A stretch of 64,000 bases of DNA, from contig PLYH01000001.1 of NCBI GenBank assembly GCA_003153355.1, forward strand, positions 314,955-378,954. The letters run 5' to 3'. Origin of the DNA: Candidatus Peregrinibacteria bacterium. Lineage in GTDB: Bacteria; Patescibacteriota; Gracilibacteria; UBA1369. The notes below the pieces were generated by a model. The model ran no database searches. It saw only the letters and a list, made by a program, of their open reading frames with translations, and was not told the origin of the DNA. The first letter of the stretch is position 1; every line of letters starts with the position of its first letter. Positions 50,629-58,482 of this stretch are shown piece by piece. The position numbers and the translations under genes were made by a program.

Positions 50629-53127
50629 ATGAAAAAAATTCCTCATAAATTAATTGCGGGCGCGAGCATCCTCGCAAGCGCACTTACATTCAGCGGCGCA
50701 GCTTTTACGCATCTGGCAATCGCCCAGAGCGTACCGACGAATGTTGAATTGGCCCAACTCATTCCTTCCGACGTTGACCAGTTTGTTGAACTCAACACTG
50801 CGGCCGCCAATCCGTTCAGCGGCATGATGGACTCCTGGATGAGCACCTTCATGAGCGGCAGCACGATGAGCGATGCAAGCACGCAGAGCATGAAAGACAT
50901 CCTCACCGCAGAACTCAAAAGCAACAAAATCAGCTTCGCGAGCAAAAACGTCATGACCACGCAGGACGGCTACAGCTATCCAATGCCGCAAACCTACATG
51001 TCCATCCACATGACTGCCGATGATTATGCCAAACTCATCACGCTCCTTCCGAGCGACGCGACCAAAGAAACTATTGATGGCATGATTATCTACGGCCCGA
51101 CTTCAAACTCATACTTCACCATGGTCGGCAACCTCGTCGTCAGCGTCAGCACGCACGACCGCATGACCGCGCTCCTGGATATGTACACCAAACCAAGCTC
51201 AACCAATGTTTCTCTCGCTCAAAGCGCGGGCTTTATGGCTGTCACGCAAAAAAACCTGGCCAACAGTTTCCTGAATATGTACATCAATCCGAACGGATAC
51301 ACGAGTATGTTTGACGGCACAGCTGCTCCGGCTGATCTGCCTACAGCTCTCGGCGGCCTGATGTCTGCTGAAAAAAATATCATGGGCGCTTTGACAGCCG
51401 AAGGCATCAGCGTTGCTCAAACAAGCACCGGATTTAACTTCAGCGTCCTGGTAAAAGGCGATGCTGCAAAACTCACCCAGCTCAATTTAAATTTCGACCG
51501 CTACAATTTTGTTCCTGAACTCTACAAATACATCAACAGCAACAACGTCATCATGTTCAGCGAAGAAAACAACCTCGAACAAAAAATCAAAGACATGATG
51601 CAACTTTTTGCAAGCGACAGCACATCAACCGCAGATTTCACCACCTGGAAAAACGAACTGCGCTCAAACGGCAACGTTGATTTTGACAACGACCTTCTTC
51701 CCCTCTTCACCGAAAAATATGCGGTGGCCATCCACCAGACTTCACAGATCTATCCAGCTGTTACGTTCGTCTTCGACGTCAGAAGCATGAGAGACAAAGC
51801 CTCAAGCGTGCTCACCAACCTGGTTCTGTATGCAGACAAATCTTTCATGCAGATGGAAAAAGACCAAGGCGTGAATTTCTACAACCGCACCACCGCAATG
51901 TTCAACGGCACCACCTATTATGAAATGAGTTTTGATCCGACCAAAACTGCAGGCGCTGACCCTTCATTCAAAAATCTTTCAAGCGACAAAGTCGTCATCA
52001 AACTTCACGCAGCGGTAACGAACGAAGGATTCCTCGTCATCACCACCGCGCCGAATGTGAGCGACGTCTTCACCGTTGACGGCAAAGGAATGATGAACAA
52101 CAGCGACTTCAGCGCAGCCTTCACCAACCCGGGCGAAACCACCGCCGGCGTTGCCTTCATGAGTTTTGACACCATCAAAACCTACGCGGACATGCTCATG
52201 ACCACCTTCAACGCTCCTGCAGAAGCACAAAGTTTTGTGGACGGTCTGCTGAACCCATGGCACAACATCTACACCAAAGCGTACGGCACCCCGGACAGCA
52301 CATGGGCAACAGGTTCCGTAAAAGTGGACACTGCCGGATTCGCAGCCTACGGCGATCTCTTCAACAAATATATGAACATGGCGGATAACTCCATGATGAC
52401 CCCGCCCGTAATGACCAAACCACAGGGCCCAACAAAAACATTCTGCGATGTCCACGACAGCGACTGGTACGCACAATATGTGAACGACCTCTCAAATCAG
52501 AACATCGTCAGCGGTTACAACGACGGCTGCTTTAAACCAAACAACCAGATCACCCGCGCCGAATTCATCAAGATGGTTTTGCAGGCTCAGGGCATCGGCA
52601 GCGTCGGAACATCAACATCAGGAAACATGACGACAAAATTCAAGGATGTCTCCACTTCCGGCAGCGAATGGTACGACAACTATGTTTACCAGGCCGTAAA
52701 CGAAAAAATCGCCTCCGGCTACAGCGACGGAACCTTCAGACCAAACGCTCCAATTACCCGCGCCGAAGCAGTCCAGATTCTCTACAACATGAGTGACGAT
52801 CTTAAATCCGTATCCCCTGTCGGAAACTTCTCGCAATTCAACGACGTTCACAACAACGACTGGTTCACGCTCGCAGTTCACGCGGCATTCGTCAAAGGCC
52901 TGATCCAGGGCACCAACGATACAACCTTTGCTCCGAACATGGACCTGACCCGCGCAGAAGCTTCAAAAATCATTTCCGTTTTCATGAGTAACACGAGCAG
53001 CGGAGGTCTTCAATATCCAATGGCTCCGACAGTTCCTCCAGCAAACCCACAACCAGGAATGATGATGAGACCAATGGGCTACACCCAACAAGACACACAG
53101 CAAACCACCGGCCCGAACATTTATTAA
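50629..53127 (+). CDS. SLH-domain protein, DUF3352-like
   Basis: 832 residues starting 17 bases after carA. Signal peptide (MKKIPHKLIAGASILASALT, ending near IAQS). Residues 40-590 resemble DUF3352, with ELAQLIPSDVDQFVELN and repeated long alpha/beta stretches. Three SLH repeats follow (about 605-790), for example NIVSGYNDGCFKPNNQITRA and IASGYSDGTFRPNAPITRA. The last 30 residues are Pro/Met/Gln-rich. Cell-surface protein; function unknown. Its position after carA has no obvious reason. Confidence 0.8.
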   Translation: MKKIPHKLIAGASILASALTFSGAAFTHLAIAQSVPTNVELAQLIPSDVDQFVELNTAAANPFSGMMDSWMSTFMSGSTMSDASTQSMKDILTAELKSNKISFASKNVMTTQDGYSYPMPQTYMSIHMTADDYAKLITLLPSDATKETIDGMIIYGPTSNSYFTMVGNLVVSVSTHDRMTALLDMYTKPSSTNVSLAQSAGFMAVTQKNLANSFLNMYINPNGYTSMFDGTAAPADLPTALGGLMSAEKNIMGALTAEGISVAQTSTGFNFSVLVKGDAAKLTQLNLNFDRYNFVPELYKYINSNNVIMFSEENNLEQKIKDMMQLFASDSTSTADFTTWKNELRSNGNVDFDNDLLPLFTEKYAVAIHQTSQIYPAVTFVFDVRSMRDKASSVLTNLVLYADKSFMQMEKDQGVNFYNRTTAMFNGTTYYEMSFDPTKTAGADPSFKNLSSDKVVIKLHAAVTNEGFLVITTAPNVSDVFTVDGKGMMNNSDFSAAFTNPGETTAGVAFMSFDTIKTYADMLMTTFNAPAEAQSFVDGLLNPWHNIYTKAYGTPDSTWATGSVKVDTAGFAAYGDLFNKYMNMADNSMMTPPVMTKPQGPTKTFCDVHDSDWYAQYVNDLSNQNIVSGYNDGCFKPNNQITRAEFIKMVLQAQGIGSVGTSTSGNMTTKFKDVSTSGSEWYDNYVYQAVNEKIASGYSDGTFRPNAPITRAEAVQILYNMSDDLKSVSPVGNFSQFNDVHNNDWFTLAVHAAFVKGLIQGTNDTTFAPNMDLTRAEASKIISVFMSNTSSGGLQYPMAPTVPPANPQPGMMMRPMGYTQQDTQQTTGPNIY

Positions 53128-53141
53128 GACAAATAAAAGAA

Positions 53142-53167
53142 AACCCCGCCAAGTGAATGGCGGGGTT
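53142..53167 (+). terminator. Terminator after the DUF3352-SLH gene
   Basis: AACCCCGCCA (53142-53151), 6-base loop, TGGCGGGGTT (53158-53167): a perfect 10-bp stem 15 bases after the stop; the T run is short. Confidence 0.7.
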
Positions 53168-53239
53168 AAATTCCGATCCTTATGAGTGTTCAGGGAAGAA
53201 AATATATGAACGCTCAAGGTTTGATGTTTATTTTGGAAT

Positions 53240-53267
53240 TTGTTTTGAGGCTGATTGACCCTATATA
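53240..53267 (+). promoter_or_regulatory. Possible promoter of the RNA candidate
   Basis: TTGTTT (53240-53245), 16-base spacer, TATATA (53262-53267); transcription would begin near 53273. Confidence 0.4.
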
Positions 53268-53269
53268 TG

Positions 53270-53531
53270 CTGGGCTTTGGCTTATTTTTCCAGTGGGGCC
53301 AGCCACCGTCCGTGGGTGTGCTCTTAGACTTCCGAAGAAGTAACGAAGTGCACCGGACAATTGGGAGTGGTGAATGCGAGAATCATTCGCGAGCACCATC
53401 ACCGAGCATATACAGCCTGTAAAGGCAGAGAGAAGGTGAAAAGTTCTAGGGCGTCGGCTCTCCCCTTAGTATGTGGAGGCCGACCAGTTCACCGTCTCAT
53501 CAATCTCTGCAGATGTTTTATTTTGTTTTTG
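53270..53531 (+). ncRNA. Structured non-coding RNA candidate
   Basis: About 260 nt that fold into a consistent set of helices. GGC+TGGC/GCCA+GCC (53273-53304). GTCC/GGAC (53308-53311, 53355-53358) enclosing GGTGTGC/GTGCACC and the tetraloop hairpin ACTTC-CGAA-GAAGT (53328-53341). GGTG/CACC with GAATG/CATTC (53369-53397). GCCT-GTAA-AGGC (53415-53426), a GNRA loop. GCAGAGA/TCTCTGC (53425-53431, 53504-53510) enclosing GGTGAA/TTCACC and the 10-bp GTCGGC-CTCC/GGAG-GCCGAC stem (53453-53484). A T-rich tract follows (53516-53531). More GC-rich than the island beside it. I could not match RNase P, tmRNA, SRP or 6S RNA. Confidence 0.65.
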
Positions 53532-53721
53532 TTTGTACCGAGATTGTAAAGGAACCATTTGTTTTTGTTTTTTTGAAACTTCAGGTGAGGAGAATGTTTT
53601 TCCAAATCCGAGGTTTCAAAGTATCATATCAAAAAAACCCACAAACGCAAATTTTACCCATAGGCAAACCTATAGGATGTTTTCTAATTTAGAAATACAT
53701 CGAATAAATGGCTTATTGATA

Positions 53722-54729
53722 TTACCCATTTAAAATCAGCCTACTCAATTCTATACAATGAAATTTACTATTAACATTCACAGTTGGACCAAGACGCATC
53801 AAATGAACATTAAATTCTTTAATTGAATTAACAACTATTTCTTCATCTAAGATACTCATAGCTTGAGCCGTATCATAAATTTGCATTCTAAATTGATCGG
53901 CGCCGCCTCTAGGATAGAAGAAATTAGGAAAAACATCTAAGCTATCATATTTGTTTATTAATTTTAATAAATCCTTTTCTTTAAACAAAGATTTTTTCAA
54001 TTGAAAAATATACAAATATGTTTTTTCTTTTTTTAAATAAAAGGCAGCCATCACTTCCTGCCAAAAAATATTGAGTCTACATAAAGTAATACCCCTTGTT
54101 CCTGGCAAGCAGCTCAAAGCCCAAAAAACCATTTCAGTTACCTCGGGTTGAATTACACATTTTGAAAAATATTTTTTTAAAAAAGGAAGTATCGTTTTAA
54201 GATGATCATCATACTCAGTTAATTTTATAAAATTTCTGTGATAAAGCCTCTCCTGTTCCGGAGCTACTATTTTTTGCTCATTTAATTTGTATTCCAGATT
54301 GTGAGATAACCAATAATTTATTTTATCTTCAGCAAGCTTTCTATTTTCAGCGACAGCTGCTTCTAAATCATCATGATAGTCTAATAATGGATTCCAGTTA
54401 CCAATTTTATTACGTAGCTTTAGACCGTTTTCTCTAAATTCTGAAATAAGAGAAATTTCTACTGCATCCAAAGTATCTTTATCATAAGCATTACAAGTAA
54501 ATTCTTGTGCATCAGGAATATCAGTATAAATATGCTGACTAAATCGTTTGACGCAATCAATAGATTGCCCAACATAATACTCACCATTTTCTATACGAAA
54601 AACATATATACCACACCTTTCATTTTTCTTATATAAATCGGCAATACTGCTTCTTCCTTTAACTAATTTAAAATCTGCAAACTTGTGTTGAGATAATATT
54701 TTCTTAACTTTTTCGTAATCAGTTTTCAC
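53722..54729 (-). CDS. GIY-YIG nuclease-domain protein
   Basis: 335 residues from a GTG at 54729, five bases after the stop of the upstream gene; an ATG at 54810 would add 27 residues but overlap that gene by 77 bases. A GIY-YIG domain is clear in CGIYVFRIENGEYYVGQS followed by KRFSQHI, with the catalytic Arg in the next helix. The remaining 230 residues are unrecognised. AT-rich with AT-ending codons, unlike the core genes, suggesting acquisition. Possibly a homing or defence-type nuclease; not shown. Confidence 0.7.
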   Translation of the reverse strand: MKTDYEKVKKILSQHKFADFKLVKGRSSIADLYKKNERCGIYVFRIENGEYYVGQSIDCVKRFSQHIYTDIPDAQEFTCNAYDKDTLDAVEISLISEFRENGLKLRNKIGNWNPLLDYHDDLEAAVAENRKLAEDKINYWLSHNLEYKLNEQKIVAPEQERLYHRNFIKLTEYDDHLKTILPFLKKYFSKCVIQPEVTEMVFWALSCLPGTRGITLCRLNIFWQEVMAAFYLKKEKTYLYIFQLKKSLFKEKDLLKLINKYDSLDVFPNFFYPRGGADQFRMQIYDTAQAMSILDEEIVVNSIKEFNVHLMRLGPTVNVNSKFHCIELSRLILNG

Positions 54730-54733
54730 AAAA

Positions 54734-55108
54734 CTATTTATAAAATTTCGCCACCCCGTGATGATGCGAACAAGATCCTTGATGATGAAGGGCAAAACTA
54801 TATGTTCCATCCTTACATAAAGCTGTCGCGCCCTTAGGAATTACCTTTTTTGCGACTAAATAACTGGAAGAAGAAACAACATGGACCGGACTTGAATATG
54901 CTGCGCTTGTAACCGAAGGAGTATATTCCAATCCAAAAACTGAAAGTGCAAAAAAGACAATGACGGCCACACATCCCATAGCCTGCCCGTACTTTCTTTG
55001 TCTCCCCTGTTTTGTTAATGGGATTCCTATTGCCCTTGAAACTCTAGCTTTAGCTGCCGAGATACCAAGTGCCCTCTTCCAAGAAAATGAAAATCCAAAT
55101 TTAGGCAT
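54734..55108 (-). CDS. DUF3761 protein with membrane segment
   Basis: 124 residues. The N-terminus FGFSFSWKRALGISAAKARV followed by GIPLTKQGRQRKYGQAMGC is a basic module that I have seen at the start of several unrelated membrane proteins. A transmembrane helix (VAVIVFFALSVFGLEY) follows. The C-terminus GATALCKDGTYSFALHHQGSCSHHHGVAKFY is the DUF3761 pattern in two parts, with two Cys and a His cluster. Probably anchored with the small domain outside. Function unknown. Confidence 0.7.
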   Translation of the reverse strand: MPKFGFSFSWKRALGISAAKARVSRAIGIPLTKQGRQRKYGQAMGCVAVIVFFALSVFGLEYTPSVTSAAYSSPVHVVSSSSYLVAKKVIPKGATALCKDGTYSFALHHQGSCSHHHGVAKFYK

Positions 55109-55113
55109 ATTAT

Positions 55114-56451
55114 TTATTGGCTAATTTCATAAATCAATTCGGCCATTTCCTCACGGGTGACATGGTGGTTCAAGTTATTTTGCCAACCACTCAACATCAA
55201 ACCATTATTTTGCGCATAATTTACATATTTCTGATACCAAGGACCTGCCGCTGATGGAACGTTTTTTCCATAACCTTCTAACACAATTTTTAGTGCTTCA
55301 GGAACGGTAATAGAATTATTTGGCTTAAAGCTTCCGCCTTTATATCCACTAATAATTCCCGCCGTTTTTGCAAAACAAACATACGGTGCAAACCATTCAG
55401 TGTGTACGTCTGAAAAACAATTAGTCCAATAGGTCTGTTCTTGAGGACTATGCTTAAGAGCTGTAACAATAATTTTTGTAAACTCGGCTCTATTTATCGG
55501 ATCAAGTGGCCTAAATGAACCACCATTACCACTAACAATACCTTGTTGTTCCAAATAAATAATTGCATCCTTATAATTTGACGAATCTATATCACTAAAG
55601 CTGTTTTGGTGGTTAATTGGTTGGCTGACAGTAGAGGTTGAATTTGGTAGTTGAGGCGCTGCTAGTGGTGTTGAAAAGGTTGTAGGTAAATCTTCTGTTA
55701 GAGAACAAGCACTAATCAGAATATTATAGCCATAGCCTTCAGGACATGCGTTGTTTTGTGGTATGCAGTTACGGGTTTGATTTTTTGCTGCTGCCTTAAG
55801 CACAGATAAGGGGATGCCATAGCCTTCTGAAAATGATTGCAGTGTTTTTAGATCGGCACCAGCCAAGACTCCCAAATCGACTAGTGACTTCAGGCTGCTC
55901 ATTTGTGCTGTAATAGCTTGAAGTTGAATCTCTTGAAGAGGGATTTCAGCAAGTTGAAGTTGTATGGTCGCATTATCAAGAGTTGCTTGATATTGTTTTG
56001 CCAGTACAGTATTTCCGGACGCTATGGCAAATTGTAAATTATTCTTAGCTTGTTCAACCGGTACATTAGCTGCGTCCACATCTGCTTGAAGCCGTGCGAT
56101 TATTGGGGCATCAGCAGCAGAGGTAGTTGGCACTTGGTTGAAATCGGTAGTTGCAAGCTGATAATTCACAACACCTCCAGTTGGACATATTGGAGTAATG
56201 ACCGGGGCGGGTGTCGCTGAACACTCATCTGCTGAGGAATATTGAACTGAACTACCACTCCACCCATCATTACAAATAACGCTACCATCGGAAGACGATC
56301 CAGCCGCACAATCAACTCCTCCATGATCTGAACAAGCGCCACTCGTAGCATAAACAATCTGCGGAGATAAATGATGCAATAAATATGTTCCCAATGCAAA
56401 AATGGCGAGTGAAAAAATTCCAGCTAAAAAATATATTAATTTTTTGTTCAT
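55114..56451 (-). CDS. SLH-domain protein with N-terminal Cys-rich segment
   Basis: 445 residues. Signal anchor MNKKLIYFLAGIFSLAIFAL, then a Cys-rich stretch (SGACSDHGGVDCAAG; VICNDGWSGSSVQYSSADEC) of a type common in secreted proteins. Residues 115-200 are helical and may form a coiled coil; a second Cys pair follows near residue 235. Three SLH repeats (about 290-445), for example GIVSGNGGSFRPLDPINRAEF, end the protein. It is six bases from the DUF3761 gene and the repeat gene, so the three are probably one unit. Confidence 0.75.
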   Translation of the reverse strand: MNKKLIYFLAGIFSLAIFALGTYLLHHLSPQIVYATSGACSDHGGVDCAAGSSSDGSVICNDGWSGSSVQYSSADECSATPAPVITPICPTGGVVNYQLATTDFNQVPTTSAADAPIIARLQADVDAANVPVEQAKNNLQFAIASGNTVLAKQYQATLDNATIQLQLAEIPLQEIQLQAITAQMSSLKSLVDLGVLAGADLKTLQSFSEGYGIPLSVLKAAAKNQTRNCIPQNNACPEGYGYNILISACSLTEDLPTTFSTPLAAPQLPNSTSTVSQPINHQNSFSDIDSSNYKDAIIYLEQQGIVSGNGGSFRPLDPINRAEFTKIIVTALKHSPQEQTYWTNCFSDVHTEWFAPYVCFAKTAGIISGYKGGSFKPNNSITVPEALKIVLEGYGKNVPSAAGPWYQKYVNYAQNNGLMLSGWQNNLNHHVTREEMAELIYEISQ

Positions 56452-56457
56452 AGTTAA

Positions 56458-57183
56458 TTAATAGCTTAGTTTATCGCAACTATTTGTTACAAAATTCCTT
56501 TGATATCCGTAATTACAATCAAAATCATTCCCTAAATAGTTCAATTTAGCATGTTTAGGTATTTTTATTTTTGTGCAAATATTCTTTACATAATCTCTTT
56601 GGTATCCGTAATTACAATCGAAGTCATCACCTAAGTAATTCAGCTTTGCATTTTTAGGTACTTTAACTTTCGTACAAGTATTCTTTACATAATCTCTTTG
56701 ATATCCGTAATTGCAATCAAAATCATCGCCTAAATAATTCAGTTTAGCATTAGATGGAATCTGAACTTTATCGCAAGAATTGGTTACAAAATTTCTTTGA
56801 TATCCATAATCACAATCAAAATCATTACCTAGATAATTCAAATGTGAATGCGCCGGCATGGTTACTGTATTCTCTGAATTTGTTGTGTCATTTGTAGGCG
56901 TATAACTAGGTAAATAATTAGATGTGCCTGTCGAACTATTATTATAATAGTTATTTAAATATGTATTAGGATTCCCGGGCGTGGTCGTACCCGTGTTGGG
57001 ATTATAATTTCCTGGAAAATCATAATTATTATAGGGGTTTGAATCTGGGCTTGTTCTTTGATATGGCTGTACGTATGTTCCGTTTTTTCGGAAATATCCA
57101 TGTACATACGCTGCATAAACCACAACAGTTAACATAGAAAAACAGCACAATACACTTGTAATGATTAAAAATATTTTTTTCAT
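56458..57183 (-). CDS. Secreted four-repeat cysteine protein
   Basis: 241 residues. Signal peptide MKKIFLIITSVLCCFSMLTV. Next is the segment YVHGYFRKNGTYVQPYQRT and an Asn/Tyr/Thr-rich linker, also found before such repeats elsewhere. From about residue 108 four tandem 33-residue repeats follow, each with the core LNYLGDDFDCNYGYQR and a second Cys ten to fourteen residues later, enough for one disulphide per repeat. Copies 2 and 3 are almost identical, indicating recent duplication. Low-GC; no catalytic motif. Confidence 0.7.
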   Translation of the reverse strand: MKKIFLIITSVLCCFSMLTVVVYAAYVHGYFRKNGTYVQPYQRTSPDSNPYNNYDFPGNYNPNTGTTTPGNPNTYLNNYYNNSSTGTSNYLPSYTPTNDTTNSENTVTMPAHSHLNYLGNDFDCDYGYQRNFVTNSCDKVQIPSNAKLNYLGDDFDCNYGYQRDYVKNTCTKVKVPKNAKLNYLGDDFDCNYGYQRDYVKNICTKIKIPKHAKLNYLGNDFDCNYGYQRNFVTNSCDKLSY

Positions 57184-57218
57184 ATTTATTTTATATTTTG
57201 ATTTAATACCGTTTTGTC

Positions 57219-57247
57219 ATTATAACATAATTTACTTTTAAAGTAAA
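57219..57247 (-). promoter_or_regulatory. Promoter of the island operon with palindrome
   Basis: Minus strand TTTACT (57247-57242), 17-base spacer, TATAAT (57224-57219), 36 bases before the repeat-gene start. The -35 lies in the palindrome TTTACTTT-T-AAAGTAAA (57231-57247), a likely operator. Confidence 0.6.
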
Positions 57248-57295
57248 TATGCGAACTTATGAAAACCCTTTAATGAAGCCATTTCAAAATTATTC

Positions 57296-57325
57296 TTGAC
57301 GGTGAGTATACACTCACCCTATAAT
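57296..57325 (+). promoter_or_regulatory. Near-consensus promoter with operator in its spacer
   Basis: TTGACG (57296-57301), 18-base spacer, TATAAT (57320-57325). The spacer is filled by GGTGAGT-ATAC-ACTCACC (57301-57318), so a repressor bound there would block RNA polymerase. It drives the 58-residue ORF. Confidence 0.75.
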
Positions 57326-57355
57326 GAGTTTGATTTACTCTATATATAAGGATCT

Positions 57356-57532
57356 ATGACCAAACGACCTCAAGCTCAACTCCAATGGCGGAACTCCCAG
57401 CAGCTGTTCCAGGCTTTCAACGAATACCTCCAAAACCTGGGTATGGGCCAAAACTTCCGGACTCACAAGTCGCCGAATGTCCGAAAACTAGAACTTGTGG
57501 TCAGGAGCCTGAATCTGCAGAGATTGCCTTAG
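57356..57532 (+). CDS. Small hypothetical protein, 58 residues
   Basis: Runs from ATG at 57356 to TAG at 57530. The protein begins MTKRPQAQLQWRNSQQLFQ and ends RKLELVVRSLNLQRLP; basic, helical and lacking Cys. It sits 31 bases after a strong, operator-bearing promoter and 8 bases after a weak AAGGA. This context suggests a regulator or antitoxin-like protein, but I recognise no family. Base composition differs from the AT-rich genes to its left. Confidence 0.55.
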   Translation: MTKRPQAQLQWRNSQQLFQAFNEYLQNLGMGQNFRTHKSPNVRKLELVVRSLNLQRLP

Positions 57533-57534
57533 TC

Positions 57535-57562
57535 TTAATTCCCCCGAATTCGAGGGAATTAA
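57535..57562. terminator. Palindromic hairpin after the 58-residue ORF
   Basis: TTAATTCCC (57535-57543) pairs with GGGAATTAA (57554-57562) around a CGAATTCG core. It is two bases past the ORF stop; the following run is A, not T, so it may act better on the other strand or as an RNA end. Confidence 0.45.
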
Positions 57563-57623
57563 AAAAAATTTATCTGGATTTAATGTGGGTAGAGTAGAAA
57601 AGGGATATACCCTATTTTTTGTT

Positions 57624-58451
57624 ATGAAAATTCGTAAAACCCTCAACGTGAAAGGTACCGAGATTACTTTGTTGTCAAAAGGCGGAGCTGATTATATTAG
57701 TTTAACGGATATGATTTCCGCTTTTGGCGACGACACACTGATTTATAGCTGGATGCGTAATAGAAATACTCTTGAATTTATTGGCTTATGGGAACAATTA
57801 CACAATCCGGTTTTTAAAGGTAACGAATTCGTTACCTTTAAACTTCAGGCGGGATTAAATAATTTTAATCTCACTCCCCAAAAATGGATCAAAGCTACGG
57901 GTGCTATCGGTTTAATTTCAAAACCAGGCCGCTACGGCGGAGGTACTTTTGCCCACCGGGATATCGCGTTTGAATTTGCTTCGTGGCTGAGCCCTGAATT
58001 TAAGTTATATCTGATCAAGGAGTTCCAGCGGCTGAAGGAAGATGAAAATCAGAGAAAATCACTCGATTGGGATCTTAAAAGATCATTGGCGAAAATCAAT
58101 TATCGGATTCACACGGATGCCATTAAAGAACACCTGATTCCCAAATTGATTACAAGTCAGCAGGCCCACGTTATTTATGCCAGCGAGGCGGATATTTTAA
58201 ACATGGCATTGTTTGGACTGACCGCCAAAGACTGGCGCGCTCAAAATGCTGATAAAGAAGGAAATATCCGGGACTATGCCATGGTGGAACAACTGGTGGT
58301 GTTATCCAATCTGGAAAGCCTGAATGCCTTATGGGTGGAGGAAAAAATCGCACAACCGGAACGGCTGATAAAGCTCAATAAGATAGCCATCTCGCAGATG
58401 CGTTCACTGCTGGGCAGTGCGGAAATGAAAAGGTTGGATGTCTCCGATTGA
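57624..58451 (+). CDS. KilA-N domain protein
   Basis: 275 residues from the ATG at 57624 (MKIRKTLNVKGTEITLL). The KilA-N DNA-binding region (residues 1-135) shows YISLTDMISAFG, SWMRNRNTLEFIGLWEQL, GRYGGGTFAHRDIAFEFASW and LYLIKEFQRLKE. The C-terminal half (LLTSQ-like ITSQQAHVIYASEADILNMA) is the usual partner domain of mobile-element KilA-N proteins. A perfect 30-bp palindrome lies in its coding region. Probably a phage- or island-derived regulator. Confidence 0.88.
   Translation: MKIRKTLNVKGTEITLLSKGGADYISLTDMISAFGDDTLIYSWMRNRNTLEFIGLWEQLHNPVFKGNEFVTFKLQAGLNNFNLTPQKWIKATGAIGLISKPGRYGGGTFAHRDIAFEFASWLSPEFKLYLIKEFQRLKEDENQRKSLDWDLKRSLAKINYRIHTDAIKEHLIPKLITSQQAHVIYASEADILNMALFGLTAKDWRAQNADKEGNIRDYAMVEQLVVLSNLESLNALWVEEKIAQPERLIKLNKIAISQMRSLLGSAEMKRLDVSD
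57813..57842. repeat. Perfect 30-bp palindrome inside the KilA-N gene
   Basis: 15 bases (TTTAAAGGTAACGAA, 57813-57827) are followed at once by their exact reverse complement (57828-57842). It encodes residues in FKGNEFVTFK. Could form a cruciform or an mRNA hairpin, or be a protein-binding site. Confidence 0.85.
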
Positions 58452-58482
58452 TCTTTTTTAAAGAAAGGGTCAAAATATTTTC

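Follow-up and report, generated by a model that had tools for sequence, protein, structure and literature searches.

A predicted structured non-coding RNA family, often encoded at two syntenic loci, in an order of Candidatus Peregrinibacteria

The locus and its predicted transcript

The window (here the whole 64,000-nucleotide stretch of Candidatus Peregrinibacteria DNA that was analysed) carries a structured element at 53270-53531, between carA and a gene for a dinG-like exonuclease-helicase. Judged from sequence comparison, it most likely belongs to a stand-alone non-coding RNA gene, termed RNA-A, which runs on the minus strand from ~53617 to 53134. The initial annotation had placed an RNA of ~260 nt on the plus strand, next to an AT-rich island. 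The island is present, with a GC content of 0.30-0.43 at 53.5-58.5 kb versus ~0.48-0.50 on either side, and encodes (53670-58480) a GIY-YIG nuclease, secreted/SLH-type proteins, and a protein resembling the KilA-N type. In three relatives (G003, G009, and G011) only a few hundred bases separate the RNA gene from the dinG-like gene, which argues for an insertion of ~4.8 kb in the window, directly 5' of the RNA promoter.

The predicted features are listed below in the 5' to 3' order of the transcript; the core is made up of the long stem e-f-g, hairpin d, domain c, and hairpin b with its pseudoknot, and a further A-rich linker joins hairpin b to the 3' domain. For the 5' and 3' domains the homologues were compared by eye, without a model.

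53652..53668, minus strand: upstream promoter box TTTGCCTATGGGTAAAA; GCGTCGATGGGTAAAA stands at the equivalent place in the closest relative (L048)
53623..53651, minus strand: promoter, with -35 TTTGCG (53651-53646), a 17-nt spacer, and -10 TATGAT (53628-53623)
53134..53617, minus strand: whole predicted gene RNA-A, ~483 nt, with transcription start at ~53617 and the end of the U-run at 53134
53575..53617, minus strand: 5' hairpin P1 (GAAAC..GUUUC), predicted by folding; homologues have GAUUUC..GAAAUC or GAAAC-type hairpins at the equivalent place
53557..53574, minus strand: A-rich linker 1; homologues have a linker of like type
53544..53556, minus strand: single-stranded motif GGUUCCUUUACAA (family form G[AU]UCNUUNAAAA), from homologue comparison
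53514..53536, minus strand: A-rich linker 2, placed by coordinates
53425..53510, minus strand: long stem of helices e-f-g; both sides change in 17/26 pairs of helices 2-4 of alignment A5
53444..53453, minus strand: conserved bulge CGCCCUAGAA, invariant in alignments A1 and A3
53369..53397, minus strand: hairpin d, supported by covariation
53308..53358, minus strand: domain c, with an outer helix (GUCCG/CGGAC), an inner helix, and a hairpin, supported by covariation
53277..53307, minus strand: hairpin b with an H-type pseudoknot (UGGC/GCCA) and an A-rich loop; pair 268-291 covaries
53168..53241, minus strand: 3' domain, with an AAAUUCC/GGAAUUU closing helix and a CUUGAG..CUCAUAAG stem, supported by exchanges in homologues
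53135..53166, minus strand: intrinsic terminator CCCCGCC..GGCGGGG-UUUUCUUUU, a hairpin with a T-run after it, in the orientation of the RNA

Four lines of evidence, viz., a sigma70-type promoter, the box upstream of it, an intrinsic terminator, and the balance of wobble pairs, assign the RNA gene to the minus strand. The promoter of the closest relatives (L048 and L049) reads TTTGCA-N17-TATGAT with identical upstream letters, ATGGGTAAAA, while the minus-strand right flank of other homologues bears TTGACA-N17-TATAGT, -TATGAT, or -TACAAT (sigma70-type, TTGACA-N17-TATAAT-like). On the RNA strand the best promoter scores 10/12 or more at 26 of 43 loci, versus a single one on the opposite strand (12% for shuffles). 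In the window the -35 (TTTGCG) is weak, which counts against the explanation that we favor. A GTCYA-NN-GTAATA box lies immediately 5' of the -35 and might be an activator site or an UP element; the sequence upstream of the tmRNA and RNase P RNA genes of the same genome does not have it. In their left flank, all 43 homologous loci inspected have on the minus strand a G+C hairpin and, after it, a T-run. Finally, alignment A6, written on the RNA strand, has 38 G·U against 14 A·C pairs, while in alignment A5, whose rows are written on the plus strand, the order is reversed (G-U 13 versus A-C 22); the pooled count favors the minus strand (binomial p = 5e-4).

Promoter, terminator, and wobble pairs thus rule out the plus-strand reading of the initial annotation, and its other details change with it: the promoter-to-terminator span gives ~483 nt, the predicted promoter lies on the right rather than on the left, and the T-rich tract that had been taken for a terminator is the complement of A-rich linker 2 (CAAAAACAAAAAC), the predicted terminator being on the left. 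A small ORF in the orientation of the RNA was also set aside, because homologues show frequent indels and covarying helices across the region, in line with the earlier remark that no ORF fits.

Homologues, covariation, and phyletic distribution

Folding of 53270-53531 by itself yields -89.8 kcal/mol for the plus strand (z -2.1, equalled by 2/200 shuffles) and -78.5 for the minus strand (z -2.5, equalled by 1/200); given that these values are modest relative to shuffles, single-sequence folding is suggestive only. Comparison with homologues is decisive. A blastn search against 59 relatives recovered matches in several genomes of the window's own family, and the aligned homologues display long conserved blocks, with the structure maintained despite sequence change. 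A covariance model (R1) built from six homologues, with the window excluded, finds the element within the 64 kb of the window at E 6e-11 and matches 11 of the 13 genomes of its family. With this hold-out match and with covariation far over controls, the comparative evidence makes the reality of the element, and the presence of helices as initially noted, certain beyond chance.

In the part comprising e-f-g and d, both sides have changed in 24/35 pairs, and none of 500 shuffles reaches any of five measures. For the b-c-d part the corresponding figures are 23/31 pairs among 19 sequences and 27/31 among 52 distinct sequences (0/500 shuffles), and sliding the partners by 1-3 columns leaves 33-43% of the cells paired, against 87% in register. 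Parsimony on a tree of 53 sequences counts 164 double compensatory events, versus 14.6±3.9 (maximum 27 in 200) under a null in which each column's substitutions are redistributed on the same tree, and 25 of the 31 pairs individually exceed this null (p<0.05). Because the sequences were aligned to the nested structure, the nested pairs are at an advantage. The pseudoknot was left out of the model, and its pair 268-291 is still CG (29 sequences), UA (14), or AU (2), with six independent double changes on the tree. Covariation in homologues, which had been proposed as the check on this element, is thus amply present. Individual helices illustrate the exchanges: the outer helix of domain c swaps between GUCCG/CGGAC, GCCUG/CAGGC, and GUCUG/CAGAC across species, and the AAAUUCC/GGAAUUU closing helix of the 3' domain is replaced by AAAUCUU/AAGAUUU in other genomes. 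Both copies in the closest relatives, L048 and L049, are devoid of the conserved CGCCCUAGAA bulge and of the tip of stem e-f-g.

At E 0.01, a wider model (R2) matches 31 of the order's 89 genomes. Model R3, representing the other half and built on the RNA strand, matches 49 of the 353 genomes of the class at a threshold of E 0.001; 48 of these belong to the order (at least 48/89), including all 13 genomes of the window's family and all 7 of a second family. These E-values come from home-made models and are rough, and all genomes compared are metagenome assemblies. About half of the order yields no R3 match at this threshold, which counts against the favored explanation and may reflect loss or divergence. 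All seven matches in a sample drawn from the phylum come from the same order, and the named records bearing the motif are MAGs of Candidatus Peregrinibacteria or other Patescibacteria. A contig labelled as a Bacteroidetes MAG (JAJRSV010000182.1) contains a strong family member (E 6e-16) and is probably misbinned Peregrinibacteria, whereas a Novosphingobium contig fits the pattern and fails the model, and was hence set aside as a chance match. Phage records searched with the window's element and viral contigs searched with the b-motif pattern of the family gave no match.

Two paralogous loci and their gene neighborhoods

At least 24 genomes, including the window's own, have two R3 loci. The second, RNA-B, lies between a gene for an MscS-type channel and an F420-ligase/formyltransferase (purN) pair; in the window's genome (1.46 Mb in 7 contigs) it spans C3:149232-149685 (453 nt), with the R3 match at C3:149409-149536. 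RNA-A and RNA-B have in common the promoter box, the core fold, the 3' domain, and the terminator, and at either locus the adjoining core genes are oriented opposite to the RNA. RNA-A is convergent with an SLH-protein gene in the window and with valS in other genomes, RNA-B is convergent with the MscS gene, and in a subgroup of the window's family the copy adjoins valS instead. In one genome (G075) the interval from the dinG-like gene to carA contains two tandem copies, separated by ~1.2 kb. The synteny is unchanged across families, which points to vertical inheritance.

Known RNAs and the proposed function

None of the 4227 families of Rfam 15, raiA included, reaches its gathering score on either strand of the window or of the homologous loci, and the only low E-values fall on terminators and low-complexity stretches. 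A permissive search of 53120-53720 returned just the terminator (53132-53212) and chance matches; the minus-strand matches at 53132-53212 to anti-hemB (E 1e-4), rnk_pseudo, and other families cover the terminator hairpin alone and stay under their gathering scores, and RF02706 matches one homologous locus, L064, by chance in A/T-rich sequence (E 0.001, 33.5 of 86 bits). No strong Rfam match thus speaks against the suggestion of an undescribed structured non-coding RNA gene, and the covariation in homologues bears it out. RNase P RNA (RF00010; C2:205853-206212, E 9e-52) and tmRNA (RF00023; C5:110329-110751, E 6e-51) were both located elsewhere in the genome without overlapping the element, and ARAGORN finds no tmRNA within the window; the element is therefore neither of these, as the initial annotation had held, although it resembles these housekeeping RNAs in having a pseudoknot. 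The 6S RNA, sometimes present as two paralogues per genome, offers another parallel as a possible abundant regulator; however, 6S RNA is one long hairpin with a central bubble, in contrast to the multi-domain fold seen here, and its model (RF00013) has no match in the window's genome.

The closest analogue in kind, without any sequence relation, is ModT, the raiA-motif RNA, an abundant trans-acting structured RNA whose molecular mechanism is unknown (PMC11706538). Like the RNA described here, raiA/ModT is stand-alone, complex, pseudoknotted, and widely inherited, with its own promoter and terminator; however, the conserved ModT isoform is ~215 nt and the RNA occurs in Bacillota/Actinomycetota (PMC11706538), whereas the new RNA is ~483 nt, with A-rich linkers and two paralogues, in Peregrinibacteria, and neither a sequence nor a covariance match to raiA is seen in the window and homologous loci. 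OLE, ROOL, and GOLLD (PMC12286853) are, like the new RNA, large and elaborately folded bacterial RNAs with conserved structure; their Rfam models have no match at E<=5 in the stretch, and the new RNA is without matches in the viral and phage collections searched. A full-text literature search combining Peregrinibacteria and non-coding RNA returned nothing. On these comparisons, what is categorically new is the RNA family, not the kind, since stand-alone structured RNAs were known before. The new RNA shows two traits of the large representatives of that kind, viz., a predicted promoter and terminator of its own and a conserved structure with covariation.

By sequence comparison, the family has a conserved fold with a pseudoknot, a conserved promoter with its box, and an intrinsic terminator; it is inherited vertically in a syntenic setting, and many species have it at two loci. 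We propose, with a probability of roughly 0.6, that the RNA acts in trans as a platform, scaffold, or decoy for one or more proteins or for a large machine. Under this proposal, the minus-strand transcript would fold into a compact core, comprising the long stem e-f-g, hairpin d, the three-part domain c, and pseudoknot b, with A-rich single-stranded linkers as joints. The core would serve as the structural platform and the conserved unpaired CGCCCUAGAA and G[AU]UCNUUNAAAA as recognition sites, by which the RNA might bind proteins or the translation or transcription machinery. The upstream box common to RNA-A and RNA-B suggests that one activator or growth signal might set the levels of both RNAs, and the box is a possible handle for finding the regulator. 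We also raise, tentatively, the narrower idea of a new class of housekeeping ribonucleoprotein RNA, with two co-regulated paralogues, confined to one CPR order and performing a core function (possibly that of 6S or SRP RNA elsewhere) by a novel mechanism.

It is rare for a large structured bacterial RNA to have no assigned job, and the ones that have been solved (RNase P, tmRNA, and 6S RNA) proved fundamental. To our knowledge, hardly any work has addressed non-coding RNA in the Candidate Phyla Radiation. To this field the family contributes a predicted promoter and terminator, a pseudoknotted consensus fold, and two paralogues with fixed synteny; that genomes often have two apparently co-regulated copies suggests a basic, so far undescribed cellular job.

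Next after the platform or decoy role, and rather unlikely, we rank a trans-acting antisense RNA that would base-pair with mRNAs or rRNA through its conserved unpaired segments and need the core for stability alone. Such pairing would be consistent with the conservation of the unpaired CGCCCUAGAA and G[AU]UCNUUNAAAA and with the retention of CGCCCUAGAA as its position shifts within the RNA: in L073, L078, and L082 the motif GCCCUAGAA is found near the 5' end and not in the e-f-g bulge. However, conservation is concentrated in the large pseudoknotted core, which is unusual for base-pairing small RNAs, and a crude complementarity scan against the partial 16S/23S genes on contig C4 yielded nothing convincing or beyond chance, leading us to set base pairing with rRNA aside. 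This 6.2-kb contig contains partial 16S and 23S rRNA genes and two tRNA genes, the rRNA operon having been split by the assembly.

Improbable, in our estimate, is a functional substitute for a housekeeping RNA missing from the order, such as SRP or 6S RNA. SRP RNA goes undetected by RF00169 in 89 genomes and by RF01854 in 40 of these, pointing either to a very divergent SRP RNA or to real loss across the order, and the window's own genome gave no 6S match. Hairpin b of some members (GGUGGCAGGACUGGAAA..ACAGCCAAAGC) shows a short local likeness to small and large bacterial SRP RNAs, vaguely recalling the S-domain. However, the positions corresponding to the SRP-critical AGG/AGCA loop and GNRA tetraloop vary in the 53-sequence alignment, and we reject an SRP identity on this ground; the model searches, like the initial annotation, find neither 6S nor SRP RNA here. 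Further, the stem and pseudoknot covary differently, divergent SRP RNAs may escape the Rfam models, and the family is undetected in some genomes of the order.

A cis-acting leader (riboswitch or attenuator) for the gene after the terminator would account for a structured core followed by a terminator, and in some genomes of family f7 (L126 and L127) a membrane methyltransferase-like gene does come next on the same strand. We consider it very improbable, given that no downstream gene is common to the loci or lineages and that the RNA gene of the window, the valS-linked copies, and the RNA-B genes are each followed by a convergent gene. Least probable is a structured DNA element (a replication or recombination site), for although covarying hairpins can work as single-stranded DNA and a 4.8-kb insertion adjoins the window copy, there are a conserved sigma70 promoter and terminator flanking the structure in one orientation, an excess of G-U over A-C on the RNA strand, and two separate syntenic loci.
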